64,000 nt of DNA from an uncultured Alphaproteobacteria bacterium (GTDB lineage Bacteria > Pseudomonadota > Alphaproteobacteria > HIMB59 > GCA-002718135): positions 62,001 to 126,000 of the forward strand of contig CACKRG010000003.1 of the NCBI GenBank assembly GCA_902602515.1, in the 5' to 3' direction. The notes under the pieces were generated by a model that saw only the letters and a program-made list of their open reading frames with translations, did no database searches and was not told the DNA's origin. Positions 17,500 to 41,105 of this stretch are shown one piece after another (position 1 is the first letter of the stretch; every line of letters starts with the position of its first letter). The position numbers and the translations under genes were made by a program.

Positions 17500-18839
17500 T
17501 ATCTATCATGCATATAATTTGAAATACCAGTTCTTAGTTTTTCAATAATCTCATCGATATGTTTTTTTTCACAGATGAAAGGTGGTGCAACAATTAAACA
17601 ATCTCCTGTTGCTTTAAGACTTAAACCAGCTTCAAATAATTTTTTAAAACATGCATAACCAGCTTTACCTAAACGCTCATCCATCTTGATATCAATTCCA
17701 CCCATCATTCCATAACCTCTAATATCGGTTATTATATCAAGGTCTTTTAATGAAAATAAACCATCTAAAAAATAGGGTGACATATCTTTTGCTCTTTCAA
17801 AGAGATTTTCTTTTTCAATAATATCCTGCATAGCAAGACCTGCAGCCATTGAAACAGGGATAGCAGAATAGGTGTATCCGTGAAAAAATTCTATTGCACC
17901 TGTAGGAGACGCGTCAACAATAGTGTCATATATATGATCTCTAGATGCAACAGCTCCTAATGGAACAACTCCGTTGGTTATTGCTTTAGCCATTGTCATT
18001 ATATCAGGACAAACATCAAATGCTTGAGCTCCAAATGGTGCGCCCATTCTACCCCAACCAGTTATAACTTCGTCAAAAATTAAAAGTATTCCGTGCTTGT
18101 TACATATTTCTCTCAAACGTTTTAAATATCCTTTTGGTGGCACTAGAGTACCTGTTGATCCAGCTACAGGTTCAACAATACATGCTGCGATATTTTCTGC
18201 TCCTATATTACCAGCTATTCTCTCTAAATCATCTGCAAGGTCAGCTCCGGTTTCTGGTTCACCTTTTATAAAAAGATTTTCTGGTAAATGAGTATGTCTT
18301 AAATGATGTACATTGGGCATCAAAATATTTGAAAATGTTTTTCTATTTGCAATCATACCTCCGACAGAAATTCCACCAATGTTCATACCGTGATAACCAC
18401 GTTCTCTGCCAACAATATGAGATCTATGGCCCTCACCTTTTGCTTTGAAATATGCAATGGCTGTTTTTATTGCAGTTTCAACTGCTGAAGATCCACAGAT
18501 TGTGAAAAATATTTTATTTAAATCCTCTGGAGTGTGTTTTGAAACCTTTCTGGCCAAATCAAATGAGCCTCCAAAACCTTGCTGAAAAGGTTGAACATAG
18601 TCTAATTGTTCTAACTGGTTTGAAACTGCTTCACGAATTTCTGGTCGTGAATGACCAGCTGGACTACAAAATAAACCCGAGCTAGCATCGATTAGCTTAT
18701 TTCCATAATGATCTGTATAATAAACTCCTTCAGCCTTAACCATTAATCTTGGACTATTTTTATAGTCTCTATTTGAAGTAAATGGCATCCAATGTTCTTC
18801 AAGAGAGTTAGGTATTTCGGTTCTTTTTTCTAAGTCCAT
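17499..18839 (-). CDS. Class III omega-amino acid:pyruvate aminotransferase (candidate taurine:pyruvate or beta-alanine:pyruvate)
   Basis: EEHWMPFTSNRD, DASSGLFCSPAGH, FDEVITGWGRMG PLP motif; overlaps ald by 1 nt. Confidence 0.85.
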   Translation of the reverse strand: MDLEKRTEIPNSLEEHWMPFTSNRDYKNSPRLMVKAEGVYYTDHYGNKLIDASSGLFCSPAGHSRPEIREAVSNQLEQLDYVQPFQQGFGGSFDLARKVSKHTPEDLNKIFFTICGSSAVETAIKTAIAYFKAKGEGHRSHIVGRERGYHGMNIGGISVGGMIANRKTFSNILMPNVHHLRHTHLPENLFIKGEPETGADLADDLERIAGNIGAENIAACIVEPVAGSTGTLVPPKGYLKRLREICNKHGILLIFDEVITGWGRMGAPFGAQAFDVCPDIMTMAKAITNGVVPLGAVASRDHIYDTIVDASPTGAIEFFHGYTYSAIPVSMAAGLAMQDIIEKENLFERAKDMSPYFLDGLFSLKDLDIITDIRGYGMMGGIDIKMDERLGKAGYACFKKLFEAGLSLKATGDCLIVAPPFICEKKHIDEIIEKLRTGISNYMHDR

Positions 18840-18881
18840 TTTTTTCCTTTTTTTTAATTGAGTATATGAAAATTAAGCTAA

Positions 18882-18915
18882 TTCAAAGAATATTTCTTCT
18901 TTGAAAGAGAAATAT
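18882..18915. promoter_or_regulatory. Nested inverted repeats between divergent aminotransferase and Pta-like genes
   Basis: TTCAAAGAA-N6-TTCTTTGAA (18882-18905) overlapping ATATTTCT-N10-AGAAATAT (18890-18915). Confidence 0.45.
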
Positions 18916-18957
18916 CATAGGAAAAAATGTAGCAGTGGTATAGAGAGAATACCAAAT

Positions 18958-19857
18958 ATGAGCACATTACCAGAAGATCTTAAAAGCAAAGCTTTAGAGA
19001 CTCCTAACATACCAGTAGCTGTAGTATGCCCCAATCAAGAAAGCATCCTATCAGCTGTAATTGAAGCTAAAAATATGAACCTAATCGATCCAACTTTAAT
19101 CGGAAATAAGAGTTTAATTGCTGAAACTGCAAAAAATTTAAGTTTAGATATTACAAATTTTGATATTGTCGAAGCAAAGGATGAAGAAGATAGTGCCTCA
19201 GTTGCTTGTCAAATGTCCAATGAAAATAGAAGTAAAATCATAATTAAAGGAAATCTTCATACTGATATTTTAATGCGTTCTTATCTAAAAAAAGAATTTA
19301 ATTTACTTGATGGCAGAAGATTAAGTCATATTTGGCATATGACTGCTCCACAACTTAAAAAACCTTTTTTTATTACTGATGGTGCCCTGAATGTTTTACC
19401 AAGAGTTGATATAAAATTACAGATTCTTAAAAATGCTGTTCAGTTTTGTAATAAACTAAATATTAAAAAACCAAAAGTTGCAATTTTATCAGGTACAGAA
19501 GATCCAATTGAAAGTATGCCAAGTTCAATTGATGCCAAAAAAGTTATGGAACTTGCTTTTGAAGAAAACATTAATGCATTTATTCATGGTCCACTAGCTT
19601 TTGATAATGCTGTTTCTGAGGAAGCAGCTACAATAAAAGGCATTAAAAACGATGTTGCTGGTGATGCTGATGTGTTATTAGTACCTAATTTAGAAACTGG
19701 AAATTCTTTATCTAAAATAATGGTTTATTTTATGAACGCATGTGCTGCAGGAATAGTAATTGGTGGTAAAATACCAGTTGTGGTGCCAAGCAGAGCTGAT
19801 AGTAAAAATTCTAAACTTGCATCAATTATGGCAGCTGTTGTAGCGGCAAATAACTAA
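18958..19857 (+). CDS. Phosphate acetyl/butyryltransferase family protein (Pta-like, COG0280 type)
   Basis: PTA_PTB-like sequence; IKGNLHTDILMR, TDGALNVLPR, GPLAFDNAVS...GDADVLLVPNLETGN; ATG at 18958 preferred over track start 18901 (TTG). Confidence 0.82.
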   Translation: MSTLPEDLKSKALETPNIPVAVVCPNQESILSAVIEAKNMNLIDPTLIGNKSLIAETAKNLSLDITNFDIVEAKDEEDSASVACQMSNENRSKIIIKGNLHTDILMRSYLKKEFNLLDGRRLSHIWHMTAPQLKKPFFITDGALNVLPRVDIKLQILKNAVQFCNKLNIKKPKVAILSGTEDPIESMPSSIDAKKVMELAFEENINAFIHGPLAFDNAVSEEAATIKGIKNDVAGDADVLLVPNLETGNSLSKIMVYFMNACAAGIVIGGKIPVVVPSRADSKNSKLASIMAAVVAANN

Positions 19858-20745: not shown

Positions 20746-21513
20746 TTATTTAGCTGTCCATCCTCCATCAATTACTAGTGATGAACCAGTCATCATTGAT
20801 GCAGCATCTGAAGCAAGATAGACTACAGCACTAGCAATATCACTTTCTGTTGCTACTTTTCCTAAAGGTATGTTTTCAATTACAGATTTTTTAAAACTTT
20901 TATCTTTAAAAAATTTTTTGACCATTGGGGTTTCCACAAATGTAGGACAAACAGAATTAACTCTAATGTTGTGCTTAGCCAAATCAATAGCCATCCCTTT
21001 GGTAAGACCTTCAACACCAAACTTAGTCATATTATAAACACTTCTAAGAGGAGCTCCTACTTTACCTAACTGAGAAGAAATGTTTATTATTGATCCACCA
21101 ATTTTTTTTCTATTTTTTGATTTAAGCATAACTTTTGTAGCTAATTGAGCAATATCGAATGATGCTTTAATATTAAGATCAACCACTTCACTCATATCTT
21201 TTCTTTTAATTTTGGTGAAATATTCAGGTCTATTTGTGCCAGCATTATTTACTAAAATGTCTAATTTATTGATTTCAGAAAATATTTTTTTTATTTCTTT
21301 TAAATTAGTTACATCACACACATAATAACTACATTTCTTTTTGAGTTTTTTAATTTTGTTTTGAACAATTAAAAGATCTTTCTCTGTACGACTAAGAATT
21401 ATTACACTTGCGCCTGCTTCTGCTAACGCTATAGCACATGCTTTACCTATACCTTTGCCTGACCCTGTCACAAGAGCAGTCTTATTTTCTACATTAAAAT
21501 TTTTAAGAAACAT
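20746..21513 (-). CDS. Short-chain dehydrogenase/reductase (SDR)
   Basis: TGSGKGIGKA, NNAG, YxxxK (YNMTK) motifs. Confidence 0.92.
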   Translation of the reverse strand: MFLKNFNVENKTALVTGSGKGIGKACAIALAEAGASVIILSRTEKDLLIVQNKIKKLKKKCSYYVCDVTNLKEIKKIFSEINKLDILVNNAGTNRPEYFTKIKRKDMSEVVDLNIKASFDIAQLATKVMLKSKNRKKIGGSIINISSQLGKVGAPLRSVYNMTKFGVEGLTKGMAIDLAKHNIRVNSVCPTFVETPMVKKFFKDKSFKKSVIENIPLGKVATESDIASAVVYLASDAASMMTGSSLVIDGGWTAK

Positions 21514-21526
21514 TTGATCTGATTAT

Positions 21527-22186
21527 TTACAATGAAAAAATAGATTGATCTAATAAATTCATTTTTTTAATACACATTTGAAAATTATCTTCTAAATGGT
21601 AATCACCTGGAAACCCAATACATTTAATTCCAGCATTTATGGCAGAATTGCTACTTTCTTCAGTATCCTCTATTGCAAGACAATCTTCTGGCTGTAAATT
21701 TAATTTATCTAATGTAACTTTATAAATTTCTGGATGTGGTTTTTCATTTTTTACAAATGATTTATTACCAATGAATTCAAATTCTTCTTTTGAAATTTGA
21801 CCTGAAAGACTTTCAAATACTGCATCGACATTATTTAAAGTTGTAGAGGTTGAGAAAGCAAGTTTAATATTATTATCTTTTGTATACTTAATTATTTCAT
21901 CAACGCTCTTTCTTAATTTTTGTTTATTCTGAATAATGAACGAGCTAAAGATTTCTGTTTTTCTATTTCTAATTTGTGAAGCATTTACATTAACATTATT
22001 TTTTTCAGCAAAATCTTCTACCCTTTTTGTCCCCCCAGATTTTTTTAACAAAATTTTATAGTCTTGCTCATCCCAATACCAATCAAGTCCAGCTTCTTTA
22101 AAAGCTTCATTAAATGCGTTACGTTGAATGTTAGAAGATTCAATTAGTGTCCCAATAGATCCAAATAGAAGTGCTTTATATTTCAT
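21527..22186 (-). CDS. HAD-superfamily (CbbY/PGMB-like) protein lacking the DxD catalytic motif
   Basis: Overall HAD-IA pattern (NEKPHPEIY, AIEDTEESSNSAINAGI) but N-terminal motif is FGSIGTL instead of FDxDGTL. Confidence 0.8.
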   Translation of the reverse strand: MKYKALLFGSIGTLIESSNIQRNAFNEAFKEAGLDWYWDEQDYKILLKKSGGTKRVEDFAEKNNVNVNASQIRNRKTEIFSSFIIQNKQKLRKSVDEIIKYTKDNNIKLAFSTSTTLNNVDAVFESLSGQISKEEFEFIGNKSFVKNEKPHPEIYKVTLDKLNLQPEDCLAIEDTEESSNSAINAGIKCIGFPGDYHLEDNFQMCIKKMNLLDQSIFSL

Positions 22187-22204
22187 AAGATTAGAAATTT
22201 ATTA

Positions 22205-23086
22205 TTAACCTTTTACTGCTCCAGCAGTTAAACCACTTATTAATTGTCTTTGGAAAAACATGATTATCATAAAAAGTGGTGCTGTTGCTGAAACAACACT
22301 TGAGACTGCCCACATATAATTTCCACTATGTTCAATAGTACCCAAATAAGCATTAATTTTAGGAACCATTGTATAATTCTGCTGATTTAAAAGAAGTGAA
22401 GTAACTGTAAAATCATTATAGGCTAACATCATACTGAATAAACCTGCTGTAACAACTCCAGGCCACATAACAGGCATTATAACAAAGCGAAACGCTTGAA
22501 AATATGAACAGCCATCAATTAGTGCGCTTTCATCTAACTCTTTAGGAACTGTTTTAAAGAAGGAATAAAGTAACCATAATGTAAAGGGTTGATTGATTGC
22601 AACTAAAACAATTATGGTAGTTGGAAGTATGCCCCAAACGTTCAATTGGAAGAAAGGAAACAGATAACCAGAAACTAGCGTAATGTGTGGCATCGCTCTA
22701 AAAATCAACGCAGCTATTAAAATCCAAAAAGTATATTTATATGTCGATCTAGACAATGCATAAGCACCTAATGTTCCTAAAAATAAAGAGATCGTAACAA
22801 CTGAAACAGTAATAATAATTGTATTCATTGTAGCTTTCCAAAATTCACCTTCAGTCCAAGACTCTACATATGCTTTAACTGTAGAAGTATCCCCTGTTTC
22901 AATCAAAGTATTAACTCCTGTGACTGCAAACATCCAATCAGCTCTTGAGAAAAAGTCGGCTTTTACTTTAAATGATCCCCAAAAAGTCCATATAAAAGGG
23001 AACACAGAAACAATTAACCAAGCAAGAATAAAAAAACTATTTATTAAAATTAGTTGTTTTGAGTATCTGTTAATTTTTGATTCCAT
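22205..23086 (-). CDS. Carbohydrate-type ABC transporter permease (MalG/UgpE-like)
   Basis: CUT1 permease; DESALIDGCSYFQAFRFVIMPVMWPG EAA loop. Confidence 0.92.
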   Translation of the reverse strand: MESKINRYSKQLILINSFFILAWLIVSVFPFIWTFWGSFKVKADFFSRADWMFAVTGVNTLIETGDTSTVKAYVESWTEGEFWKATMNTIIITVSVVTISLFLGTLGAYALSRSTYKYTFWILIAALIFRAMPHITLVSGYLFPFFQLNVWGILPTTIIVLVAINQPFTLWLLYSFFKTVPKELDESALIDGCSYFQAFRFVIMPVMWPGVVTAGLFSMMLAYNDFTVTSLLLNQQNYTMVPKINAYLGTIEHSGNYMWAVSSVVSATAPLFMIIMFFQRQLISGLTAGAVKG

Positions 23087-23087
23087 A

Positions 23088-24116
23088 TTATCTTTCTGTC
23101 CTAAATTCTCTCCATGTTCTTATAAGTACTGGTGTTAGTAGGATAGCTACACCAATGATAGTTAACATAGATGTTGCTCCTGCAGACCCAAATAACATTT
23201 TGTTTTCACTTCTTAAGTCATTATAAATCATCCAAGAAAGTGATTGAGCAACTCCTTCAGCAGCAAACCCAATTATTGGCTCAAGAACTCTAAAATTATC
23301 CATGAGACAAATTAATATAATAAATGTTGCTACCGGATAAAGATGTGGAATAACAATATGTCTGACTCGTTCATATCTTGAGGCACCATCTATGATCGCT
23401 GCTTCAATTGGATCTTGAGGAACAGTTTGTAATGCAGCATAAAAGACAACAAAAGCAAATGGTGTATTATGCCAAATCCCATAAATAATCAGAGTAATCC
23501 AAGTCAATTGACTTGAGGACTTTAGTGATAGGTTTGGATCATCAAATAAGAATTGAATAAATGAACCTAATATTCCCTTAGCATCTATCATCCAAAATAA
23601 AACGAGAGATCCAATCAATGGTGTTACAATCATAGGAAGTATAACACCAAAAATGGTTGGGCCTTTTAAACTTTTTGTAATTGTATTTACACTTAAAGCA
23701 ACGATGAACCCTAAAACTACAACTGGTGGTGTAACGGCAAAACAAAATGTAAGTGTAAATAAAAGTGCTTTGTAAAAAGGTAAATTTAGTAAGATATCCG
23801 TAAACTCAGCCATAGATGAGGAATTAGTCCAGGCCTCTTTAATTTCATCAAAAGCCAAATGGTTTCTATCGCCGTATGTTCCTAAACCATTGAATCTTCC
23901 AAGAGGCTGTTCTTCTTGTAATTTTGTTGTTGCTTCAATATCAACTTTTGTTTCTGTTTTACATCCAAATGGATCACATTTTTCTACTTCCATTAAAATT
24001 TGTTCAGGCTCAATATGAAGAGATTGAAAAAAACTAGAAATAATTGGAAGGCCAATAAATAATAGCATTGCCAATCCACTTGGAAAGAAGAACCAAAAAA
24101 ATGTTCTGTGGGGCAT
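23088..24116 (-). CDS. Carbohydrate-type ABC transporter permease (MalF/UgpA-like)
   Basis: EAAIIDGASRYERVRHIVIPHLYP EAA loop. Confidence 0.92.
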   Translation of the reverse strand: MPHRTFFWFFFPSGLAMLLFIGLPIISSFFQSLHIEPEQILMEVEKCDPFGCKTETKVDIEATTKLQEEQPLGRFNGLGTYGDRNHLAFDEIKEAWTNSSSMAEFTDILLNLPFYKALLFTLTFCFAVTPPVVVLGFIVALSVNTITKSLKGPTIFGVILPMIVTPLIGSLVLFWMIDAKGILGSFIQFLFDDPNLSLKSSSQLTWITLIIYGIWHNTPFAFVVFYAALQTVPQDPIEAAIIDGASRYERVRHIVIPHLYPVATFIILICLMDNFRVLEPIIGFAAEGVAQSLSWMIYNDLRSENKMLFGSAGATSMLTIIGVAILLTPVLIRTWREFRTER

Positions 24117-24134
24117 CTATTTCTTACTAAAAAA

Positions 24135-24162
24135 AAAGTGGAACATAATAATGTTCCACTTT
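24135..24162 (-). terminator. Hairpin between the SBP gene and downstream permease genes
   Basis: AAAGTGGAACAT-aata-ATGTTCCACTTT, perfect 12 bp stem, 4 nt loop. Confidence 0.75.
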
Positions 24163-24182
24163 ATCATAAATATTTATAGGAT

Positions 24183-25418
24183 TTATAGAAAACCTTGCTC
24201 AGTAGCTTTTGCTACGTAAGCAGCTTCTACATCCGCTAATGCTTTTTCAGCAGACTCATTTCCTTGAAGGAATTCAACAAGTTCTGTACTCAAAGCACCA
24301 TGTAATAGACTCATGTATGGTAAGCTTGGGTAAGGTGTTGCACCTCTGTTAGCAGCGTCAACAACTGGTCCTGCTGTATCTCCAGGCGAATAACCATCAA
24401 TCAACCAAATTGTTGCATTTGGATTAGCATTTGCCATTTCTGTTGAAGTTGCTGCACCTAAAAGAGCTCTAAAAGATGCTTCTGCATTTACATCAGAAGT
24501 ATTTGTTGCAATTCCAAATCCATCCCACCATAGAGTTGTTGCTGGTTTACTTCCACCACCTACAGATGGAGAAGGAGCTAATCTAGTATCAGCTTTAATT
24601 GCTTGATCACCTTCGTCATCTAACAATGAAGCTGCGCCTGAATTCCAGATGTGCATTAATGCTACATTACCAGACTCCCATTCTTCTTTAACTGCATTTG
24701 TATCTTGAGTTAAGAAATCAGGGTTACTTACTTCGGTTAATCTTTTAAGCATGTTAAGAGCAGCTACACCTTTAGCATTATTTACACTAACTTCAGCTGT
24801 TCCAGCTTTAAAGAAATCACCTCCGTGACCAAGGTACATGTTTACAAACTCTTGACCTAGGTTCCATCCAGATTTGAAAGCACCAGCATATGGGTTAGCC
24901 ATTTTACCAGAAGCTTTAATTTTTTCTGCAGCCGCAATTACCTCTTCATATGTTGAAGGAACTGCGATACCTAAATCATTAAGAATACTTTCTCTGTACC
25001 AAAGATGTTGAGCATTAGCCATAAATGCTACTGCATAGATTTTACCATCAATCACAATTTTTTGATTGTCTTGTAATGCACTTCCGTATTTAGCAACTAA
25101 ATCATCAAGTGGACGAATTAAGTTATCATTCATTAAAGTCGTGATTGAACCATTAGTTACAAGTTTAGCAGAGAACTCAGCTGGGTTAGCTGATAGTGCT
25201 GCTACTTGTAGTTTGTTATGATCAACTGAATGAGTTACAGAAAAATCTGCATCAGGTCCTGCACAACTTTTTACTTCATCCATGAAAATTCTGTATGTTG
25301 TAAATTCGTTTGCTAGAATCTTTATTGATCCATCTGTTACTCCACAAGGCGAGTGCCCATCGGCATATGCACCTGTGCTAACAAATGTGAACAATAGAGC
25401 TATTAATAGTTTTTTCAT
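24183..25418 (-). CDS. Carbohydrate-type ABC transporter substrate-binding protein
   Basis: Signal peptide MKKLLIALLFTFVSTGAYA; SBP_bac_1-like; LWYRESILNDLGI. Confidence 0.9.
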   Translation of the reverse strand: MKKLLIALLFTFVSTGAYADGHSPCGVTDGSIKILANEFTTYRIFMDEVKSCAGPDADFSVTHSVDHNKLQVAALSANPAEFSAKLVTNGSITTLMNDNLIRPLDDLVAKYGSALQDNQKIVIDGKIYAVAFMANAQHLWYRESILNDLGIAVPSTYEEVIAAAEKIKASGKMANPYAGAFKSGWNLGQEFVNMYLGHGGDFFKAGTAEVSVNNAKGVAALNMLKRLTEVSNPDFLTQDTNAVKEEWESGNVALMHIWNSGAASLLDDEGDQAIKADTRLAPSPSVGGGSKPATTLWWDGFGIATNTSDVNAEASFRALLGAATSTEMANANPNATIWLIDGYSPGDTAGPVVDAANRGATPYPSLPYMSLLHGALSTELVEFLQGNESAEKALADVEAAYVAKATEQGFL

Positions 25419-25453: not shown

Positions 25454-25509
25454 TTTAAGTATAAATCCTTTATATTAGTATTAAAAAATAATGCAATAAT
25501 ATGAATTGA

Positions 25510-25527
25510 TATTCAAGATTTTGAATA
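25510..25527. promoter_or_regulatory. Candidate operator, TATTCA-N6-TGAATA
   Basis: TATTCA-agattt-TGAATA 20 bp upstream of lacI-family ATG, in the divergent SBP/LacI region; same palindrome at 28157 and 32359. Confidence 0.65.
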
Positions 25528-25547
25528 TTAAAATGGGGGGATAATTC

Positions 25548-26546
25548 ATGAGTTTTAAAAAGACTGCGACATCACAGGACGTAGCAAAACTAGCAGGAGT
25601 ATCCCAATCAGCTGTTTCTAGATGTTTTACTAAAGGTGCTAGCATTTCTAGTAGAACAAAGTTGAGAGTCTTGGAAGCAGCTAGAAAATTAAAATATAAA
25701 GCACCTAATATTTCTTCTAATTCAATATCTAATGATGATAGCGGATTAGTGGCTGTCATTTTACCTTACGTTACAAGCAGATATTATCCGGAAGTTTTAA
25801 TAGAGTTACATGAAGCACTTAGGAATGGGGGTTTTAGAATTTTATTAATTACGACTGATGATGGAGAGGAATTAGATGAAAAATTAATACAGCCATACTT
25901 AAAAGAAAAACTAACTGCAATAATATCAGCCACAAAACCTACTGAAAAATTTGTTGAAGACTGCAATCAAAAAAGAATACAGTTTATTGCCTATAATAGA
26001 AGTTGGAATATACCAACAATAAGTTCCGTTGCGTGTGATCACCGTCATGGAGGAGAAATAGTTGCTGAATATTTTACCAAAAAAAATCATAAAAATATTG
26101 GCCTTATTGAAGGACCAAAAGGATCTTTCGTTAGCGATGAGCGATGCAAAGGTTTTAAAAATTATCTTAAAAATAATAAAAAAGTTAAATTAAATATTGA
26201 AAAAGGTTTTTTTACTTATGAAGGTGGCTATCAAGCAACTGAAAAAATTTTTAATAAAAACATAAGTGCAATATTTTGTGCTGATGACACAATGGCATTT
26301 GGATGTTTAGATTATATTAAAAAAAATACTTCGTTAAAAACACCTTCTCAATTAGAAATTATAGGCTATGACGATATATCAATGTCATCTTGGGAGTCAT
26401 ATAACCTGACAACTGTCAGACAACCTATTAGACAAATGTCAAAACTAGCAACCCAATTAATAAATGAATATATTAAGGATCCAGATTTTGAACCTATAAA
26501 TCACATTGTACAAGGAAGACTTATAAAAAGAAAAACTACAAAATAA
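25548..26546 (+). CDS. LacI-family transcriptional regulator
   Basis: N-terminal HTH ATSQDVAKLAGVSQSAVSRCF; periplasmic-binding-like C-terminal domain. Confidence 0.94.
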   Translation: MSFKKTATSQDVAKLAGVSQSAVSRCFTKGASISSRTKLRVLEAARKLKYKAPNISSNSISNDDSGLVAVILPYVTSRYYPEVLIELHEALRNGGFRILLITTDDGEELDEKLIQPYLKEKLTAIISATKPTEKFVEDCNQKRIQFIAYNRSWNIPTISSVACDHRHGGEIVAEYFTKKNHKNIGLIEGPKGSFVSDERCKGFKNYLKNNKKVKLNIEKGFFTYEGGYQATEKIFNKNISAIFCADDTMAFGCLDYIKKNTSLKTPSQLEIIGYDDISMSSWESYNLTTVRQPIRQMSKLATQLINEYIKDPDFEPINHIVQGRLIKRKTTK

Positions 26547-26547
26547 T

Positions 26548-26967
26548 TTATATAAATTTTAATCCCATCTGTTCGAAAACACCATGGTTATCTACCATAA
26601 CGTAATTATCTAAAAACTTTCCATCTTTAATTGTCCAAAAATCTGAAAATTGCATTTTTATAGATTTGCCTGTTGGTTCTACTCCAAGATATTTTCCACT
26701 ATGTGTGCCTGTTAAAAATCCTGTTGCACTAATCCATTCACCTTCAGCAACCACAATATCATTTTTTACATGGTAATCTGGAAATGCTTCATAAAAAGGT
26801 TTTAGAACTTTGTATTTAAAATTTTCTATACCATGGATATCGCCAAAACCTGGAGGGCCATGCCAAACCATATTATTATGCCAGTATTTGTGTTGTGCTT
26901 CTAGATCTTGAGCATTAAGTGCATCATACATATCAGCTAATAATTTTTTACTTTCATCTAAAGTCAT
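26548..26967 (-). CDS. SnoaL-like (NTF2-fold) protein, single domain
   Basis: YWHNNMVWHGPPGFGDIHGIENFKYKVLKPFYEAFPDYH SnoaL-type pattern. Confidence 0.85.
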   Translation of the reverse strand: MTLDESKKLLADMYDALNAQDLEAQHKYWHNNMVWHGPPGFGDIHGIENFKYKVLKPFYEAFPDYHVKNDIVVAEGEWISATGFLTGTHSGKYLGVEPTGKSIKMQFSDFWTIKDGKFLDNYVMVDNHGVFEQMGLKFI

Positions 26968-28103
26968 TTTTTATCTCCTAAAATTTGCATTAGAATTGCA
27001 AGCTCATTAAAACCAGTCCACTCTTTAATAATTTTATTATTTTTAATTTCCCATTGAGTGATTCCCCACAAATACACTTCTCTATTAGATGGTTGGCCAT
27101 ATGAGCCATTCCCTTTATGCGTTCCTACTGCGCCCCAACGAACCGATACTAAATAGCCATCTTTTGTATTTCCCATCCAGTATAAATCTTCAATACTGAG
27201 TGCAAGATCAGGAAACGAAGCTAAAAGTGAAATTATAAATTTTCTTAATTGCAAAACTCCTTTAAATTTACGACCAGTTGAACCTTCAAATTCTACCTTA
27301 CTCGAGTATGCTTTATTTATTGCAGAAAAGTTTCGTCTATTCCAAATTGTATCATAAACTGCATGGACAAACTCTCTTAGATTTGTAATTTTATCTGGAA
27401 TATCAAAACTAATTGGTTTTAATTTAGTAATATTTCTAGTTGGCTTGGAGTTTTTAAAATGAGGGGCATAAGGACCTGCAATTCCCTCATCAACAAGTTG
27501 CTTGGCAACTTGATTTAAATCTAATCCGAGTTGTTTAATTAAACCTGCTGTATCGTAGACAACATTTTCGTAATAAATTTCATTATTTTTGGCTACACAA
27601 TTCGCAATACAAAATAATCTTACTTTTTTACCAGTTGGTTTGGAAAATTTGCTAAATCCAGTATTTGTTCCAGTAATAATTGTCCTATGCGAAGTATGAA
27701 AACTTACATTTTCATCTCCTGCCCAAATAACTTCATCTGCAAATAATCGAATATCTGGAAAGGCATTGTTGGTATGTACAGTATCAGCTACAATTTTTTC
27801 AGATCCAGATTGTAAACCAAACTCATCCCAAACTCTGCAATCTTTACTATAGGTGTCATAAATATACCCAATATTTTTTTCTTCCCATATTTGATACGTA
27901 ATCCTTACAATATAATCTATTATATTTTTATACTGATCCTCAAAACCCTTCATTGATTGATGTTTAAGTTTTTTTGGTTTTGGATTTAATGATTTAGTTG
28001 TTCCTCCACCTCCGTATGCTTTTAATGAAACATCATAACTCTTAGGCATATGATGATCTTGAAGGGCTTCTGGTCTTTTGTCTGTAATTTTATTAAATTT
28101 CAT
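26964..28103 (-). CDS. Two-domain SnoaL-like protein
   Basis: MKGFEDQYKNIIDYIVRITYQIWEE and second half VSVRWGAVGTHKGNGSYG; overlaps the 26548 gene by 4 nt. Confidence 0.78.
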   Translation of the reverse strand: MKFNKITDKRPEALQDHHMPKSYDVSLKAYGGGGTTKSLNPKPKKLKHQSMKGFEDQYKNIIDYIVRITYQIWEEKNIGYIYDTYSKDCRVWDEFGLQSGSEKIVADTVHTNNAFPDIRLFADEVIWAGDENVSFHTSHRTIITGTNTGFSKFSKPTGKKVRLFCIANCVAKNNEIYYENVVYDTAGLIKQLGLDLNQVAKQLVDEGIAGPYAPHFKNSKPTRNITKLKPISFDIPDKITNLREFVHAVYDTIWNRRNFSAINKAYSSKVEFEGSTGRKFKGVLQLRKFIISLLASFPDLALSIEDLYWMGNTKDGYLVSVRWGAVGTHKGNGSYGQPSNREVYLWGITQWEIKNNKIIKEWTGFNELAILMQILGDKK

Positions 28104-28156
28104 AATTTGTATTTCTAATGAGATACATTTAAAAATATTTCAAAGCAATGAAATTT

Positions 28157-28174
28157 TATTCAAAAAAATGAATA
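28157..28174. promoter_or_regulatory. Candidate operator, TATTCA-N6-TGAATA
   Basis: TATTCA-aaaaaa-TGAATA in the divergent region between the 26964 and 28211 genes. Confidence 0.65.
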
Positions 28175-28210
28175 TTGTCTTTTTTAGCTTATTAATATAA
28201 TCAAAATAAA

Positions 28211-29215
28211 ATGACTGATCTTCAAGCAGAAAAAAAATTAGTTTTAGATTATTTCAATGAAATAGATAGTTGCAACATTGATACATTATCTGAAGTTATA
28301 TCTAAATACTCATCAGAAGATTTTAGTATGAAATGTACACATCCATTCAACGAACTGAGAAGTATCGATCTTATTGTTAATAATCTTTGGAAGCCAATTA
28401 AAAATTCATTTTCACCTATACAACGTCGATTAGATATATTTTATGCTGGGATAAATTCACTAGATAAAAATAAAGGGAAATGGATCTCCAGCATGGGTCA
28501 TTTCATGGGTGTTTTCAATAAGCCATTTGTAGGCCTTAAGCCAAATTATAAATCTATTTTATTAAGATTTGCTGAATTTTACAAAGTGGAAAATAATAAA
28601 ATTACTGAAGGAGCTATTTTCTTAGATGTAATGAATTTAATGCAGCAACTAGGTCTTTCTATCATTCCTGAATCTACAGGTCTCGTTTGTGTAACACCAG
28701 GACCAATGAATCATAAAGGTTTAAAATTTGATGTTTCTAATCAAAGTGAAAGTCAAAAAACATTAGATTTAATTCACAGAATGCGCGATCGACTTGTTAA
28801 AGGATCCAAAATGCAATCTTACAAAGAAGAATTAGAATTAGATTGGCATAAAGACATGATTTGGTGGGGACCAGGAGGTATAGGAGCTTCATATACTATT
28901 GATGGTTATCAAAAAGGCCACACAAAACCATTTCAAGATGGTTTAGAGTTTGTTCGTTTCAATGGACACATACTTAGCAGCTCTGAAGACGATCTAGGAG
29001 GTTGGTTTGGTTGGCCAAATTTAATTATGAAACCTAAGGGAGAATATTTAGGATTAACGAATGCAAGTGATGTTGAATCAGAAATGAGAGTTGTAGATTT
29101 ATATCGAAGAGATGGAGATAAACTGGCTGAAAATTGGATCTTTATTGATCATTTGCATTTTTTAAAAAAACTAGGAGTAGATCTTTTAGAAAGAGCAAAA
29201 TTTTTAAATCAGTAA
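28211..29215 (+). CDS. Two-domain SnoaL-like protein
   Basis: Second half KDMIWWGPGGIGASYTIDGYQKGHTKPFQ matches the SnoaL pattern; first half TGVFNKPFVGLKP-like. Confidence 0.78.
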   Translation: MTDLQAEKKLVLDYFNEIDSCNIDTLSEVISKYSSEDFSMKCTHPFNELRSIDLIVNNLWKPIKNSFSPIQRRLDIFYAGINSLDKNKGKWISSMGHFMGVFNKPFVGLKPNYKSILLRFAEFYKVENNKITEGAIFLDVMNLMQQLGLSIIPESTGLVCVTPGPMNHKGLKFDVSNQSESQKTLDLIHRMRDRLVKGSKMQSYKEELELDWHKDMIWWGPGGIGASYTIDGYQKGHTKPFQDGLEFVRFNGHILSSSEDDLGGWFGWPNLIMKPKGEYLGLTNASDVESEMRVVDLYRRDGDKLAENWIFIDHLHFLKKLGVDLLERAKFLNQ

Positions 29216-30343
29216 TTAGATAACTTTTGAGGCAAGTTTAGTACCTTCAACTAATGCATGAAGCTTTTCATAACAAATTTTTTCATCAATTTTTCCAAAA
29301 CCAGCAAATGTACTAAAACCGCAATCTGTCCCTGCCATTAATTGATCTTTTGGAATGACTGTAGAAAACTGAATTAATCTGTCTGCAACAACTTCCGGAT
29401 GTTCTACAAAATTAGAGGTTGAGTCGATTACGCCAGGTACTAGGACTTTATCTTTTGGTAACCTTATATCTTGAAAAACTTTCCATTCATGAGCGTGCCT
29501 AGGATTTGAAGATTCAATGAGAAAGTATTTTATCTTTGATTTCAAAATTATAGGTAATATTTTCTCTAGAGCAATATCGTGTGTGTGGGGTCCTTCATAA
29601 TTACCCCAACATATATGCATTCTAGTTTGTTCAACATCTACATTAGATAATGCTGAGTTTAGGCATTCAATTTGTAACTCTGCACGTTTAATAAACTCAT
29701 CTTCAGATAAATTTTTAAAATTCATATGTCTTGCTAAAGCAAGGTCTGGGCAATCTAATTGAACTTGGATATCTGATTTTGTTATTAGCTCATATTCTTT
29801 AGCCATAATATTAGATAATTTATCCAAATATTCATCTTCGCTACTATAAAATTTATTTGGCATAAAAACATTTATGACGCCAGGTGATGCTGAGTTCATA
29901 AATGCATGTCGGTGATTTAGTTTATCAAGTGAATTTTTAAAATTATTTATATCCTGGAGAAGGGAAGTTTCATCTTTTACTTTTAATTCGTTTGTACAAC
30001 ATGGTCTGGTATAAGTTGGTGTACCACCACTTTTTGCAATCTTTTCTTTGTATTCTGGAAAATCATCAAGATCAGCAGGTGCTCTTCTTTCACTTTCACC
30101 TGAGAACCCATCAATTCTGTCTTTAATATATGTAGCGTAGCTAATTTTACTCATCTCCCCATCACTGACAAAATCAATTCCAACATCAAGTTGACTTTTA
30201 ACAACACTTTGCACGTTGTTTTTTAATACTTCATCAAAACTACTTTGACTAAATTTCTCTCCTTTATCTTTTGCAAATAAAAATTCTGAAAGTTCTTTTG
30301 ATCTAGGAAGGCTTCCAACATGTGTTGTCAAAATATTAGACAT
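29216..30343 (-). CDS. MetE-like / COG0620 family zinc protein (class that includes epoxyalkane:CoM transferase-like proteins)
   Basis: TTHVGSLPRS N-terminus, HICWGNYEGPHTHD and GTDCGF putative Zn-ligand motifs. Confidence 0.8.
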   Translation of the reverse strand: MSNILTTHVGSLPRSKELSEFLFAKDKGEKFSQSSFDEVLKNNVQSVVKSQLDVGIDFVSDGEMSKISYATYIKDRIDGFSGESERRAPADLDDFPEYKEKIAKSGGTPTYTRPCCTNELKVKDETSLLQDINNFKNSLDKLNHRHAFMNSASPGVINVFMPNKFYSSEDEYLDKLSNIMAKEYELITKSDIQVQLDCPDLALARHMNFKNLSEDEFIKRAELQIECLNSALSNVDVEQTRMHICWGNYEGPHTHDIALEKILPIILKSKIKYFLIESSNPRHAHEWKVFQDIRLPKDKVLVPGVIDSTSNFVEHPEVVADRLIQFSTVIPKDQLMAGTDCGFSTFAGFGKIDEKICYEKLHALVEGTKLASKVI

Positions 30344-30347
30344 TAAA

Positions 30348-31340
30348 TTAACCTGTTATTAATAAAATCTGTTTCCAGATCATAGTTTCATCATAGAGAA
30401 CCCATTCATTTTTAATACCTCTTTCTCCAAATTCAACATGATTAATACCCATTATATAAATTTTTGAATTAGAGGCTTTCCCAAAAAGACCATTTCCTTC
30501 ATGTTTACCTACCATAGACCATCGGACTGAAGCTTTTTTAGGTTCATATTTTTCTTCAGTAAATGCAATATGCTCAACTGAGAACAATGCGTTAGGAAAA
30601 GTATCTCTTAATTGTTTCCAAAATTTTACTACCTCATCTCTACCATGGTGAGTATTTCCTCCTGGCTGAAATTGCTGTATGGCTCTGTCATAACTATCAT
30701 TTATTGTTTTCTCTAAATTAATGTTCATAATAGAAGTTAAGATATTTGCATATAATTCTCCACAGTTACCAGAAGCTAATACAGGAGATTTATAAATAGA
30801 TTTAACAGGTGTATTTTCATCAAAGGGTTTACTAGCCTTTTCAGGACCACCTTCATCTTTAATAAGATTGCTTGCAAATTTCTTGGGGTCAATTCCAATT
30901 TGTCTCACAATTGCTCCTTGATCTCTCACAAGCCACTCATCATAAACTTGATTATTCATGCATGCACAATCAGCGATAGTTCGGTAATATAGTTTTTTCC
31001 CTGTCGCTTTCCCATACATCCCATCAACAGAATGAGTAGAAGTTGATAAAATGCGGTGTGATGAAAAATATCCCTCTTCATCATTCCCTGTCCAAATTAC
31101 ATCTTCACCTAAAAGTGTTCTGTCGGGAAATATTTTTTTACTAGCATAAGTACTTTCTATTACCGGGTCTGCACCGTAAATTACTCCTGAAGGAGATCTT
31201 GTAGGTGTAGGGAGGCTTACATTTGGAGTATCAGCATAATAATTTCTTATTGCTTCAACATCATTGTTTTCCCAAATTTGATATGTGATCTTTAAAATAT
31301 AATCAGGAAAATCTTTGAATTGTGTATCAAATCCTTTCAT
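30348..31340 (-). CDS. Two-domain SnoaL-like protein, paralog of the 26964 gene
   Basis: MKGFDTQFKDFPDYILKITYQIWEN and ASVRWSMVGKHEGNGLFG match the 26964 product. Confidence 0.8.
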   Translation of the reverse strand: MKGFDTQFKDFPDYILKITYQIWENNDVEAIRNYYADTPNVSLPTPTRSPSGVIYGADPVIESTYASKKIFPDRTLLGEDVIWTGNDEEGYFSSHRILSTSTHSVDGMYGKATGKKLYYRTIADCACMNNQVYDEWLVRDQGAIVRQIGIDPKKFASNLIKDEGGPEKASKPFDENTPVKSIYKSPVLASGNCGELYANILTSIMNINLEKTINDSYDRAIQQFQPGGNTHHGRDEVVKFWKQLRDTFPNALFSVEHIAFTEEKYEPKKASVRWSMVGKHEGNGLFGKASNSKIYIMGINHVEFGERGIKNEWVLYDETMIWKQILLITG

Positions 31341-31351
31341 ATAATTAATAT

Positions 31352-32323
31352 TTAATTAGTTTGTCGTATTATAAATAAATTACCATCATTGTCACTTATC
31401 TGTCTTATTGAACGTAGTGAATTTTTTGGTACAGAAAATGTATCCTTTTCTTTAATAACTACTTTGTCTCCGTCACAATCTATTTCCCATTCACCAGATA
31501 AACAATGATACACTTCTGATTTCTCAAGTTTGTATTCATGTATATGAGCAGTTTTTCCATTAAGTAGAGAAAGGCTAAAACCTGTCACATGTGGTATGTT
31601 TGGAGTAAAAGATTTATCATGAATTTGAAACTGATCAATATAGTTAATAATTTTATTTGATTGATAATGATCATCATCAACAAAGTATTTTTCTTTATCA
31701 TTAAATCGAATGACAAACTTTTCTATATCTTCTGAAGAGTAGTGGTCGAAAGTCTCTAATTCGTTATCTTTTAGTGGCTGAATAATTTTTGTCTCATCTG
31801 TTATTTTCTGTTTCTCAGTATCAATTAAAGAATTATCATTCATTAATACCATGCCAGATTCTTTAGCATCTTTTAAAAGTTTAGGCGTCCAAGTAATTAC
31901 ACCTGGGTCGTTTTCACCTAGTACAACAAACATTAGTGCTTCTTCATTACTTACATTCTGAAAACCTCTGAACATGTTTGTAGGAAAAGAAGCAATATCA
32001 CCTTTGTTTAGGATTACTTCTCCCTCTGTGCCATCAACTCCCCAATAAAAACGCCAAGCCCCAGAGTGAATTATAAAAACCTCTGCGGTTGTATGACTAT
32101 GTAATCCAGAACCATTCATTGGAGCAGCGCTTACCGCACCAATATTAAAACCATGCTCTTCAGCTATTTTTACATTTTGTTTAGCATCTTCACTGACACC
32201 AGGGCCTATAACTGAATAGTTTTTCCTATCTTGATGACCTTTTAGTTTTCCCTCAACAAATGGTATATTACTAGGAATAAGTTCATCGAATTTGGCTAAT
32301 CTAGATGTAATATTAATTGACAT
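31352..32323 (-). CDS. Bicupin (two cupin domains)
   Basis: LHSHTTAEVFIIHSGAWRFYWG and AHIHEYKLEKSEVYHCLSGEWEI, two cupin motif 1 instances. Confidence 0.82.
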   Translation of the reverse strand: MSINITSRLAKFDELIPSNIPFVEGKLKGHQDRKNYSVIGPGVSEDAKQNVKIAEEHGFNIGAVSAAPMNGSGLHSHTTAEVFIIHSGAWRFYWGVDGTEGEVILNKGDIASFPTNMFRGFQNVSNEEALMFVVLGENDPGVITWTPKLLKDAKESGMVLMNDNSLIDTEKQKITDETKIIQPLKDNELETFDHYSSEDIEKFVIRFNDKEKYFVDDDHYQSNKIINYIDQFQIHDKSFTPNIPHVTGFSLSLLNGKTAHIHEYKLEKSEVYHCLSGEWEIDCDGDKVVIKEKDTFSVPKNSLRSIRQISDNDGNLFIIRQTN

Positions 32324-32338
32324 ATTGTTATGATCTTT

Positions 32339-32376
32339 TATTCATTTTTTTTGAATATTATTCAAAATAATGAATA
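32339..32376. promoter_or_regulatory. Tandem candidate operators, TATTCA-N7-TGAATA and TATTCA-N6-TGAATA
   Basis: 32339-32357 TATTCA-ttttttt-TGAATA; 32359-32376 TATTCA-aaataa-TGAATA; divergent cupin/SnoaL region. Confidence 0.65.
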
Positions 32377-32414: not shown

Positions 32415-33512
32415 ATGGCAAATAAAATACAAAACTTTGATACAGGTGAGAAAGATAACTCAAATATAATTTATTTAGATCTTGATCTAAAAATAAATAT
32501 AGAAAACAAAATATATTTTAAAAATTTATTAAATAAAATTGCTGAGTGCTCTTTAGATGATTTAGAAGATAATCTTGAAAATTTATATCACGTTGATGCT
32601 GAGTTTAATGGCTTTCATCCAATTAATGAAATTAAGGGAATTGAAGAAATAAAAAATAAATATTTAATACCTCTAAAGAAGGCATTCCCCAATCTTGAAA
32701 GAAGAAATAATCTAGTTATTGGTGGTGCATTTAGAGATAAAGTTTTTGTCTCATTTGTTAGTCATTTAACTGGAACTTTTACAAATGAATGGTTGGGTGT
32801 AAAACCAACTAACAAGACAATTTATCTAAGAACATGTGAAGCACATCAAATTACAAACAATAAAATAATAAAATCTTACACATTGATAGATACTGTAGAT
32901 TTTATCCGTCAAGCTGGACATTGGCCTATAAATAAATCACTTGGAGTAGAGGGTATGTGGCCTAGTCCAATCACAGGTGATGGAGAAAATAATCAAAATT
33001 TAGATAAGGAATTGTCTCTTCAATCTTTGAATCAAAATTTAACCATGCAAAGAAGTTTAAATATTAAACCCGAGACTGAGCCAGGTCTATCAAAGGAGCA
33101 AATAAGAGAAAAATTAATTAATCATCCTCAACAAGATTACTGGCACCCAAAAATGATGTGGTATGGGCCAAGTGGTATAGGTACAGCTAGAGGTTTAAAT
33201 GGTTTTGTTGATCATCACCAACTCCCATTTAGACTTACATTCAAGGACAGAGACTATTGGAAAATTGGGCATTACATAGAAATTGGAGATGGAAATTATT
33301 CTATGACTGGTGGTTGGCATAGTATCCAATGCGTACATGGTTCAAGTGATTGGCTGGGATATGAACCAACTCAAAAAAAAATAACAATGAGAGTAATGGA
33401 TTTTTATTTACACCATGAAGGTTTGATTAGAGAAAATTGGGTTCCAATTGATATTGCACACATTTTAAATCAAATAGGGATTGATATATTTAAATTAATT
33501 CATAAAAAATAA
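32415..33512 (+). CDS. Two-domain SnoaL-like protein, paralog of the 28211 gene
   Basis: HPKMMWYGPSGIGTARGLNGFVDHHQLPFR matches WHKDMIWWGPGGIGASYTIDGYQKGHTKPFQ. Confidence 0.8.
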   Translation: MANKIQNFDTGEKDNSNIIYLDLDLKINIENKIYFKNLLNKIAECSLDDLEDNLENLYHVDAEFNGFHPINEIKGIEEIKNKYLIPLKKAFPNLERRNNLVIGGAFRDKVFVSFVSHLTGTFTNEWLGVKPTNKTIYLRTCEAHQITNNKIIKSYTLIDTVDFIRQAGHWPINKSLGVEGMWPSPITGDGENNQNLDKELSLQSLNQNLTMQRSLNIKPETEPGLSKEQIREKLINHPQQDYWHPKMMWYGPSGIGTARGLNGFVDHHQLPFRLTFKDRDYWKIGHYIEIGDGNYSMTGGWHSIQCVHGSSDWLGYEPTQKKITMRVMDFYLHHEGLIRENWVPIDIAHILNQIGIDIFKLIHKK

Positions 33513-33514
33513 TT

Positions 33515-34837
33515 ATGGCTATAGAATATCTTAAAAAAGGCATTGATGAGAAACAAAGAACGGAAAATAATGAGAAAGTAAAAAAAGTTGTTGAAGAAAC
33601 ATTGCATAAAATTGAAATAGAAGGAGATAAATACATCAGAGACTTATCAAAAAAATTTGATAATTATTCTCCACCTAATTTTAAATTATCTGAAGATGAA
33701 ATAGCTCAACTAATGAGTGAGATCTCAGATGAAGATATGGAAGATATTAAATTTGCTCAAAAACAAGTTAGGTCTTTTGCTGAGGCACAGCTAAAAACAA
33801 TAAACGAACTTGAAGTAGAAATACAACCTGGTGTAATATTAGGCCATAAAAATATTCCTGTTCAAGCTGTCGGTTGTTATGTTCCAGCTGGAAAGTTTCC
33901 TATGGTAGCATCTGCTCATATGTCAGTTGTTACAGCGTCTGTTGCTGGTGTCCCAAGAATAGTTGCAACAACTCCTCCATTTCAAGGTAAACCAAATCCA
34001 GCTGTTGTCACAGCAATGAAACTTGGTGGTGCTCATGAAATATATGTTTTAGGAGGTATGCAAGGTGTTGGCGCTATGGCAATAGGCACTGAAACTATAA
34101 AACCGGTTGATATGCTAGTTGGTCCAGGAAATGCTTTTGTAGCTGAAGCTAAAAGACAGCTATATGGAAAAGTAGGTATCGACTTATTTGCTGGCCCTAC
34201 TGAAACTATGATAATTGCTGATGATTCAGTTGATGGTGAAATTTGTGCAACTGATTTATTAGGTCAAGCAGAACATGGCTATAACTCACCAGCGGTAATG
34301 ATTACTAATTCAAGAAAACTTGCTGAAGAAACAAAAAATGAAATAAAAAGAATATTAGAAATTTTACCAACAAAAGACACGGCAGGTGTCAGCTGGAGAG
34401 ATTATGGTGAAATAATTTTATGTGATACTTATGAAGAAATGTTGGATAAAGCAAATGAAATTGCCTCCGAACATGTTCAAGTAATGACTGATAGAGACGA
34501 TTGGTTCTTAAATAATATGAAAGCATATGGAGCGCTTTTTTTAGGAGCTCGTACAAATGTTGCTAATGGTGATAAGGTAATTGGAACTAATCACACATTA
34601 CCAACGAAAAAAGCTGGTCGATATACTGGAGGCCTCTGGGTAGGTAAATTTATTAAAACACATACTTACCAGAAAATAATGACTGATGAGGCAGCGACTA
34701 AAATTGGTGAGTATGGGTCAAGACTTTCTTACCTAGAAGGTTTCATAGGGCACGCTGAGCAATGTAATGTTAGGGTAAGAAGATTTGGGGGCGTAAATGT
34801 TGAGTATGGGAAACCTGCAGCTAAATTAAAAAATTAA
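33515..34837 (+). CDS. hpsN: Histidinol dehydrogenase family protein, HpsN-like (candidate sulfopropanediol 3-dehydrogenase)
   Basis: HisD-type core ([25 protein letters not shown]) with [20 protein letters not shown]-terminal segment resembling HpsN rather than biosynthetic HisD. Confidence 0.6.
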
Positions 34838-39335: not shown

Positions 39336-41105
39336 TTATTGAATAACAGTATCTTTAGGATCTATACCGGCAACCTCAACAGGAGCTTTCATAGCATCTC
39401 TTCTAAATGGTTCTCCAAGCTCTTGGTTGAGCATAACTTCTATAAAAGTTGTAGTGCCTTCCATTTGCTCTTTGCATGATAGTTTTAAAGCTTCAGTTAA
39501 TTCTTCTTGCGTATTAACTTTAACACCTTTAAATCCACATGCATCAGCAATTTTGGCATAACTTAATTTTGGATCAAGCTCAGTACCAACAAAATTATTA
39601 TTATACCAAAGAGTAGTATTTCTTTTTTCAGCACCCCATTGATAATTTCTAAATATGATCATTGTGATACTCGGCCATCCCTCTCTATTACAAGATGTCA
39701 TCTCACTCATACTAATTCCAAAAGCGCCGTCTCCAGCAAATCCGACTACGGGTGTATTAGGGCAACCAATCTTAGCCCCAATAACAGATGGAAAGCCATA
39801 GCCACAAGGACCAAACAAACCAGGGGCTAAATATTTTCTTCCATTTTCAAATGTAGGATATGCATTTCCGATTGCACAATTATTTCCTATATCACTAGAA
39901 ATAATTGCATCCTCTGGTAATCCTGCCTGTATAGCTCTCCACGCCATTCGTGGTGACATTTTTTCAGGTTCTCTATCTCTAGAATCTTTGTTCCAAGATG
40001 TTCCTGGATCATCATCTTCATGATCAAGTCCAGTTAATGTTTGTAGCCAAGATGATTTAGTTTGGTGAATTAGTTCTTCTCTTTCTTTTCTATTCACATT
40101 TCCCGCATCTGAGGAAAGGTTCTCAAATATTTGTTTTGAAACTAATTTAGCATCCCCACATATACCTATGCTGATTTTTTTTGTTAGGCCAATACGATCA
40201 GAATTAATATCAACTTGAATAACTTCAGCATCTTTAGGCCAATAATCAATACCATATCCTGGAAGAGTAGAAAAAGGATTTAGTCTTGTTCCAAGTGCAA
40301 GAACAACATCTGCTTTAGAAATAATTTCCATAGCTGCTTTCGAACCATTATATCCTAGCGGCCCAACTGCTAGAGGATGTTTGCCTGGAAAACTGTCATT
40401 ATGTTGGTACCCACATGCAACAGGAGCACTCAATTTTTCAGCAAGTTTTTTACAATCATCAATAGCATCAGCTAAAATGACACCAGCGCCGGATAAAATA
40501 ACTGGAAATTTTGCATTAGATAATAAGTCTGCTGCTTGTTTAATCGCTTCTAAACCTCCTGAAGGTCTCTCAAATTTAATTATGGGAGGAAGTTCGATAT
40601 CAACTACTTGAGTCCAAAAATCTCTAGGAATATTTAATTGAGCTGGAGCTGATCCTTTAATTGCTTTAGAAATAACTCTATTTAAAACTTCAGCTACTCT
40701 TGAAGGGTCTCTTACCTCTTCTTGATAGCAAACCATATCTTTAAATAGATTCATTTGTTCAACTTCTTGGAAACCTCCTTGACCCATTGTTTTATTTGCA
40801 GCTTGCGGTGTAACAAGTAACATCGGAGTATGATTCCAATATGCAGTTTTTATTGGAGTAACTAAGCCTGTAATGCCTGGTCCATTTTGGGCAATACACA
40901 TTGCAATTTTACCGGTTGATCTAGTGTACCCGTCAGCCATAATACCACCATTAGACTCATGCGCCACATCCCAAAAAGTAATATTTGCTTTTGGAAATAA
41001 ATCAGAAATTGGCATAAACGCTGATCCGATAATGCCAAAAGCATGCTGTATCCCGTGTCTTTGTAAAACTTTTACAAAAGCTTCTTCAGTTGTCATTTTG
41101 GCCAT
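39336..41105 (-). CDS. xsc: Sulfoacetaldehyde acetyltransferase
   Basis: ThDP enzyme, FGIIGSAFMPISDLFPKANITFWDVAHESNGGIMADGYTRSTGK and RNYQWGAEKRNTTLWYNNNFVGTEL typical of Xsc; 589 aa. Confidence 0.93.
   Translation of the reverse strand: MAKMTTEEAFVKVLQRHGIQHAFGIIGSAFMPISDLFPKANITFWDVAHESNGGIMADGYTRSTGKIAMCIAQNGPGITGLVTPIKTAYWNHTPMLLVTPQAANKTMGQGGFQEVEQMNLFKDMVCYQEEVRDPSRVAEVLNRVISKAIKGSAPAQLNIPRDFWTQVVDIELPPIIKFERPSGGLEAIKQAADLLSNAKFPVILSGAGVILADAIDDCKKLAEKLSAPVACGYQHNDSFPGKHPLAVGPLGYNGSKAAMEIISKADVVLALGTRLNPFSTLPGYGIDYWPKDAEVIQVDINSDRIGLTKKISIGICGDAKLVSKQIFENLSSDAGNVNRKEREELIHQTKSSWLQTLTGLDHEDDDPGTSWNKDSRDREPEKMSPRMAWRAIQAGLPEDAIISSDIGNNCAIGNAYPTFENGRKYLAPGLFGPCGYGFPSVIGAKIGCPNTPVVGFAGDGAFGISMSEMTSCNREGWPSITMIIFRNYQWGAEKRNTTLWYNNNFVGTELDPKLSYAKIADACGFKGVKVNTQEELTEALKLSCKEQMEGTTTFIEVMLNQELGEPFRRDAMKAPVEVAGIDPKDTVIQ

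Follow-up and report, generated by a model that had tools for sequence, protein, structure and literature searches.

In a survey of the LacI family, 1173 of 1303 motifs (90%) were CG-centred, 49 had another centre and 29 were degenerate, and 72% of the surveyed regulators had a site in their own promoter (Ravcheev et al. 2014, PMC4052901). In family members the hinge places a conserved hydrophobic residue, in most cases leucine, into the central CG; exceptions are described as rare, and CytR is the one cited (PMC2978694). The relaxed half-site spacing of CytR has been ascribed to an interdomain linker that is flexible and unstructured (Jorgensen et al. 1998, as cited in PMC2978694), and its half-sites also contain TTGCA (PMC3454398). 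Here, we analysed a stretch of 64,000 nucleotides from an uncultured alphaproteobacterium (hereafter the window), in which a lacI gene at 25548-26546 lies within an island of importer and catabolic genes and the palindrome TATTCA-N6-TGAATA occurs in the three divergent promoters of that island. It is very probable that this palindrome is the operator of the LacI protein, and that the protein, having lost the canonical hinge, would repress six transcription units as tandem dimers until released by an inducer.

The locus resembles the local LacI-family regulons of the survey (PMC4052901) in its 18-bp even inverted repeat with constant spacing, its regulator gene beside the targets, the sugar-type ABC importer among these targets and the operator in the lacI promoter, as in most surveyed regulators. 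It differs from them in the absence of the central CG, in the tandem double sites found in every promoter and in the degenerate hinge. The predicted operators in the window are as follows.

25510-25527: primary operator TATTCA-agattt-TGAATA in the lacI/importer divergent promoter; exact copy, kept in 75/75 orthologous promoters
25490-25507: secondary operator AATGCA-ataata-TGAATT in the lacI/importer promoter, 20 bp centre to centre from the primary
28157-28174: primary operator TATTCA-aaaaaa-TGAATA in the SnoaL379/SnoaL334 divergent (middle) promoter; exact copy, kept in 41/41 where the module exists
28137-28154: secondary operator ATTTCA-aagcaa-TGAAAT in the SnoaL379/SnoaL334 promoter, 20 bp from the primary
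32359-32376: primary operator TATTCA-aaataa-TGAATA in the cupin/SnoaL365 divergent promoter; exact copy, kept in 74/74
32339-32357: secondary operator TATTCA-N7-TGAATA in the cupin/SnoaL365 promoter, 19.5 bp from the primary; N7 in 32/32 distinct promoters

The three exact copies stand where an earlier note on this DNA had placed them. That note had put the sites about 20-75 bp from start codons, which fits five of the six first genes (20-54 bp); the start codon of the solute-binding protein (SBP) gene is farther away, 92 bp from the primary operator. When the whole assembly (1,431,626 bases, completeness 86.5%) was scanned with consensus patterns, as the note had proposed, TATTCA-N6-TGAATA was found exactly three times, all in the divergent promoters of the island, and a reversed control pattern gave no match in the assembly. 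Markov models of order 1-3 predict about 0.03 copies per 64 kb and 0.6-0.8 per genome. The looser pattern ATTCA-N6-TGAAT occurs at nine places in the genome, of which the three island sites are the sole intergenic ones; the remaining six lie inside long open frames (266-757 amino acids).

To follow the sites across related genomes, we assembled 84 sequences (1.54 Mb), namely the window, the surroundings of the LacI ortholog in 74 public loci, and some further stretches. The host group is uncultivated marine Alphaproteobacteria, and the related public records are mostly single-cell (SAG-style) assemblies, one of them titled AG-337-I02. The counted pattern tolerated one half-site variant, TATGCA, found mainly at the lacI promoter. 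The palindrome was present in all lacI (75/75), middle (41/41) and cupin (74/74) promoters, 190/190 altogether, and nowhere else in the 84 stretches. Footprinting of orthologous promoters, another check suggested at the outset, thus recovered the site in every promoter that could be examined; in the alignments the half-sites are fixed and the spacer is variable. About half of the islands are without the SnoaL139/379/334 module, and these are precisely the ones without the middle site. In several clades (L103-L137, compared with the window) the importer adjoining lacI has been replaced by a distant relative (SBP/permease identity 42-60%), and the operator is retained. An origin of the palindromes by chance, or as a structural feature of AT-rich promoters, would suit the AT-rich genome, but conserved half-sites beside variable spacers in 190/190 promoters, against an expectation of about 0.03 per window, speak otherwise. 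Together with the absence of other genomic copies and the intergenic placement, these results led us to reject a chance origin, whose probability we regard as negligible.

Genomes of the same genus without lacI and cupin matches gave scattered background matches only, and the recurrent TATTCATCTACATGAATA-type matches among same-genus genomes fall within a coding region resembling a UvrD-type helicase. Same-genus genomes with the cupin but no lacI match are uninformative as natural knock-outs, since their contigs break inside or beside the island. One off-island TATTCA-N6-TGAATA was seen 18 bp before a GNAT acetyltransferase gene in genome G003 (L054:1501-1518), and the same 18-mer recurs in several genomes, G030, G068 and G070 among them; it is possibly an extra target or a chance occurrence.

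A natural loss of lacI was found in the sister family, where the cupin island is present in 30 of 52 genomes. Only two of these 30 (G512 and G515) carry lacI, 81-82% identical to that of the window, and all three sites are present in both. In the 28 islands without lacI no site precedes the cupin gene (one of them was partly readable, at a contig end), and among the 12 complete lacI-less islands no promoter has a site. Some lacI-less promoters retain decayed copies such as TTTTCA-N6-TGAATATTATTCG, which makes loss likelier than original absence. The cupin tree requires at least two independent changes. The lacI-less genomes keep the catabolic genes, and the outer promoter parts TTCAAAGCAAT and TGAATATT are conserved. 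In L259 (G508) the island genes are split into many frames, apparently through sequencing errors in the assembly and not through decay.

Because the sites are lost and present together with lacI, the adjacent LacI is indicated as the regulator. If a different regulator from elsewhere in the genome bound the palindrome, with the adjacent LacI a bystander, the AT-rich centre without CG would be less surprising, as such a centre is atypical of LacI-family sites (1173/1303 CG-centred, PMC4052901). We consider this quite improbable: within one family the sites go with lacI, all intergenic sites lie within the lacI-linked island, and distant LacI orthologs with the same helix-turn-helix (HTH) have equally spaced half-sites.

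These distant orthologs come from 18 stretches (L209-L226) of other alphaproteobacterial families that hold the same gene cluster with a LacI ortholog (28-36% identity by tblastn). Nearly all of them share the HTH core GVSQSAVSR. Their operator, TTGCA-wwCGww-TGCAA, has the same N6 architecture, usually with a central CG, and TTGCA-N6-TGCAA precedes SBP, SnoaL, HpsN or cupin genes. At least 9/10 matches are reached at 27 such places, and 20 of these are CG-centred; a permuted-arm control gave means of 6.9 and 0.76 places, respectively, with largest counts of 41 and 7. Hybrid half-sites bridge both motifs, namely TATGCA at lacI promoters and ATGCA/TTGCA in the secondary site. The distant orthologs thus share with the window the catabolic gene set, a near-identical HTH core and the N6 palindrome, but have a canonical hinge, mostly a CG centre, and the half-site TTGCA instead of ATTCA. 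The proposal that the palindrome ties the island into one regulon under the adjacent LacI is therefore supported by ortholog promoters, by the sister-family loss of lacI and by the operators of distant LacI proteins.

The regulator itself is a variant member of its family:

25548-26546, plus strand: LacI-family repressor, 332 amino acids, with HTH GVSQSAVSR, non-canonical hinge YKAPNISSNSISNDDS and periplasmic-binding-like effector domain (Pfam)

The LacI-type HTH (PF00356) scores 42 bits against a cut-off of 27, and the effector domain matches PF00532 (70.1 bits) and PF13377 (66.9 bits), both above their cut-offs. The protein is placed in the LacI/GalR family on these two domains, and the hinge is the variant feature. 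Its nearest solved sequences are CcpA, PurR, RbsR and LacI. PurR, LacI and CcpA have the same domain order, but in these a hinge leucine enters the central CG (PMC2978694), whereas the hinge of the window protein is without the motif; aligned with CcpA, it has one extra residue ahead of PN and lacks A-R-x-L. The canonical hinge-helix motif (P-x-x-x-A-R) is found in none of the 29 distinct orthologs of the window's order, all of which carry the extra residue, and in 18/18 distant orthologs. Mean column entropy in the window's order is 0.14 for the HTH, 1.52 for the hinge, its most variable part, and 0.49 for the core, compared with 0.76, 0.70 and 1.33 in the distant orthologs. The recognition helix is unchanged in the window's order, and a central CG, the usual LacI/GalR feature, is seen in 0/191 operator sites there.

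It appears that this LacI lineage no longer makes the hinge contact and that its operator centre was thereby freed from constraint, so that hinge loss is the likely explanation of the atypical AT-rich centre. The earlier note was right that the centre is atypical; the degenerate hinge answers its reservation that another regulator might be at work. For hinge loss, E. coli CytR was the sole precedent that we found in the literature. Spacing in the window also varies, with N6 and N7 sites (N7 in a secondary site only), but CytR acts with CRP at weak, variably spaced or direct-repeat half-sites, whereas the window primaries are strong and always N6. The window protein scores 130 bits against the CytR model NF008269, below the cut-off of 436. 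The regulator is thus a LacI-family variant without the hinge and central-CG features of most members, for which CytR is a partial precedent.

All three promoters carry double sites, with a weaker second palindrome 20 bp to the left of the primary in each and the strong palindrome always toward the plus-strand gene. Only the second palindrome at 32339-32357 had been noticed before, and its N7 spacing is borne out by conservation among orthologous promoters; those at 25490-25507 and 28137-28154 had been missed. With a generic half-site score (maximum 10), an offset of -20 was the clear maximum among all offsets tested, reaching 10/10 in 34/34 distinct lacI promoters, a mean of 9.9/10 in 17 middle promoters and, with N7, 10/10 in 32/32 distinct cupin promoters. 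The window-wide chance of a secondary palindrome is 0.0002 per place. Because 20 bp is about two helical turns, two dimers would occupy nearly the same face of the helix.

The inner half-sites of such a pair, TGAAT-N4-ATTCA, could also be read as an ArgR-type box that places the island under arginine control, and TGAAT-tgat-ATTCA at 25502-25515 agrees with the E. coli ARG-box pattern. However, the cupin promoter has N3 between the inner half-sites, whereas the outer N6 pair is invariant, the N6 palindrome is mostly single in the distant clusters, and no PF01316 match was found in the 86.5%-complete genome, although 9 of 14 control genomes have one. ArgR was rejected as the regulator on the missing PF01316 match in the assembled genome, and arginine control is extremely improbable.

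There is about an even chance that the LacI lineage of these ocean bacteria, which we take to be of AEGEAN-169/HIMB59 type, has done away with both hinge helix and central CG, that cooperative binding of hinge-less dimers to paired palindromes about two helical turns apart takes the place of minor-groove intercalation, and that the alphaproteobacterial orthologs, with intact hinges and mostly CG-centred single or paired sites, show the path. The tandem arrangement may offset the lost hinge contacts. The distant clusters have mostly single N6 palindromes; tandem pairs are also seen in at least two of them, L223 and L226 (22 and 24 bp apart), so compensation by tandem sites is hypothetical.

The genes placed under these promoters, with the remainder of the importer operon, are the following.

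24183-25418, minus strand: SBP_bac_1 solute-binding protein of the ABC importer, first gene of its operon (profile match)
23088-24116, minus strand: ABC importer permease A (BPD_transp_1)
22205-23086, minus strand: ABC importer permease B (BPD_transp_1; MalG/GlcU-like)
21527-22186, minus strand: HAD-family phosphatase (beta-phosphoglucomutase-like), likely in the importer operon (18-base gap)
20746-21513, minus strand: short-chain dehydrogenase (SDR), likely in the importer operon (13-base gap)
26548-26967, minus strand: SnoaL-like protein, 139 amino acids
26964-28103, minus strand: two-domain SnoaL-like protein, 379 amino acids, first gene left of the middle operator
28211-29215, plus strand: SnoaL-like protein, 334 amino acids, first gene right of the middle operator
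29216-30343, minus strand: short MetE-like protein (Meth_synt_2), end of the cupin operon
30348-31340, minus strand: SnoaL-like protein, 330 amino acids, cupin operon
31352-32323, minus strand: two-domain cupin, first gene left of the third operator
32415-33512, plus strand: SnoaL-like protein, 365 amino acids, first gene right of the third operator
33515-34837, plus strand: HpsN-like dehydrogenase (histidinol-dehydrogenase family)

In the proposed mechanism, repressor dimers would sit on the two adjacent palindromes of each divergent promoter, roughly on one helix face, with the unchanged recognition helix reading the outer half-sites. Bound dimers would lie over the core promoters and silence six transcription units together: lacI through autoregulation, the importer operon SBP-permease-permease-HAD-SDR, SnoaL379-SnoaL139, SnoaL334, cupin-SnoaL330-MetE2 and SnoaL365-HpsN. 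The imported substrate or an early breakdown product may bind the effector domain and release the repressor. Sites, conservation, association with lacI, tandem geometry and the hinge and CG changes are seen directly; from them we infer physical binding, repression rather than activation, cooperativity and the inducer.

LacI could instead bind as an activator or dual regulator. The 92 bp to the SBP start codon would permit activation on that side, and some LacI-family proteins, such as PckR, are predicted dual regulators (PMC4052901). This is unlikely, because the sites lie 20-54 bp from the other five first start codons, as is typical of repression, and the lacI-less genomes keep the catabolic genes and outer promoter parts, as expected if the promoters work without LacI.

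Several observations weigh against repression by a hinge-less LacI. The loss of operator and lacI in the sister family rests on about two evolutionary events, and in 6-7 of the 18 distant clusters the stretch that was read shows no clear TTGCA-N6-TGCAA site. Hexamers resembling promoter elements overlap the operators no more often than in shuffles, so that repression by promoter occlusion is conjectural. The AlphaFold model has no helix at the hinge, but at low confidence (pLDDT, the predicted local distance difference test, <50; protein mean 67.6), and was taken as weak support only. Low genomic G+C may partly explain the AT-rich, CG-less centre.

For an abundant ocean lineage known from uncultivated members, the analysis defines a predicted operator, its regulator and a regulon of six units, and the loss of lacI serves as a natural experiment. 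The same data form an evolutionary series that bears on a textbook question, the mutual dependence of the LacI-family hinge helix and the central CG of the operator. The conserved cluster points to one widespread, unnamed catabolic pathway, and the regulator could lead to its substrate.

The catabolic set (ABC importer, several SnoaL, HpsN-like, SDR, cupin, short MetE and LacI) is conserved across many alphaproteobacterial families. Our literature search on this gene set and pathway returned nothing relevant, and no paper naming it was found. The closest solved structures to the HpsN-like enzyme are sulfopropanediol dehydrogenases, and the SBP belongs to the sugar-binding type and resembles solved examples only weakly; on these grounds we would guess at a sugar- or polyol-like substrate, perhaps sulfonated. 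The importer operon (20746-25418) has no ATPase gene, so it would have to share an ATPase encoded elsewhere in the genome. At one and the same place in the island, the HpsN-like gene exists in two diverged versions, which are about 46% and 80-98% identical to that of the window; the former is seen, for example, in L089, L104, L106 and L119. One contig labelled as a Euryarchaeota metagenome-assembled genome (L107) bears the alphaproteobacterial island, most likely through a binning error.

Outside the island, genes for alanine dehydrogenase, class-III aminotransferase, phosphate acetyltransferase and a thiamine pyrophosphate enzyme (Xsc-like) flank it at 16384-19857 and 39336-41105, which suggests taurine degradation; between the flanking genes are CysD/CysN-C-like genes. 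A second short MetE-like gene (15338-16387) lies outside the regulon, several kb to the left of the importer operon.

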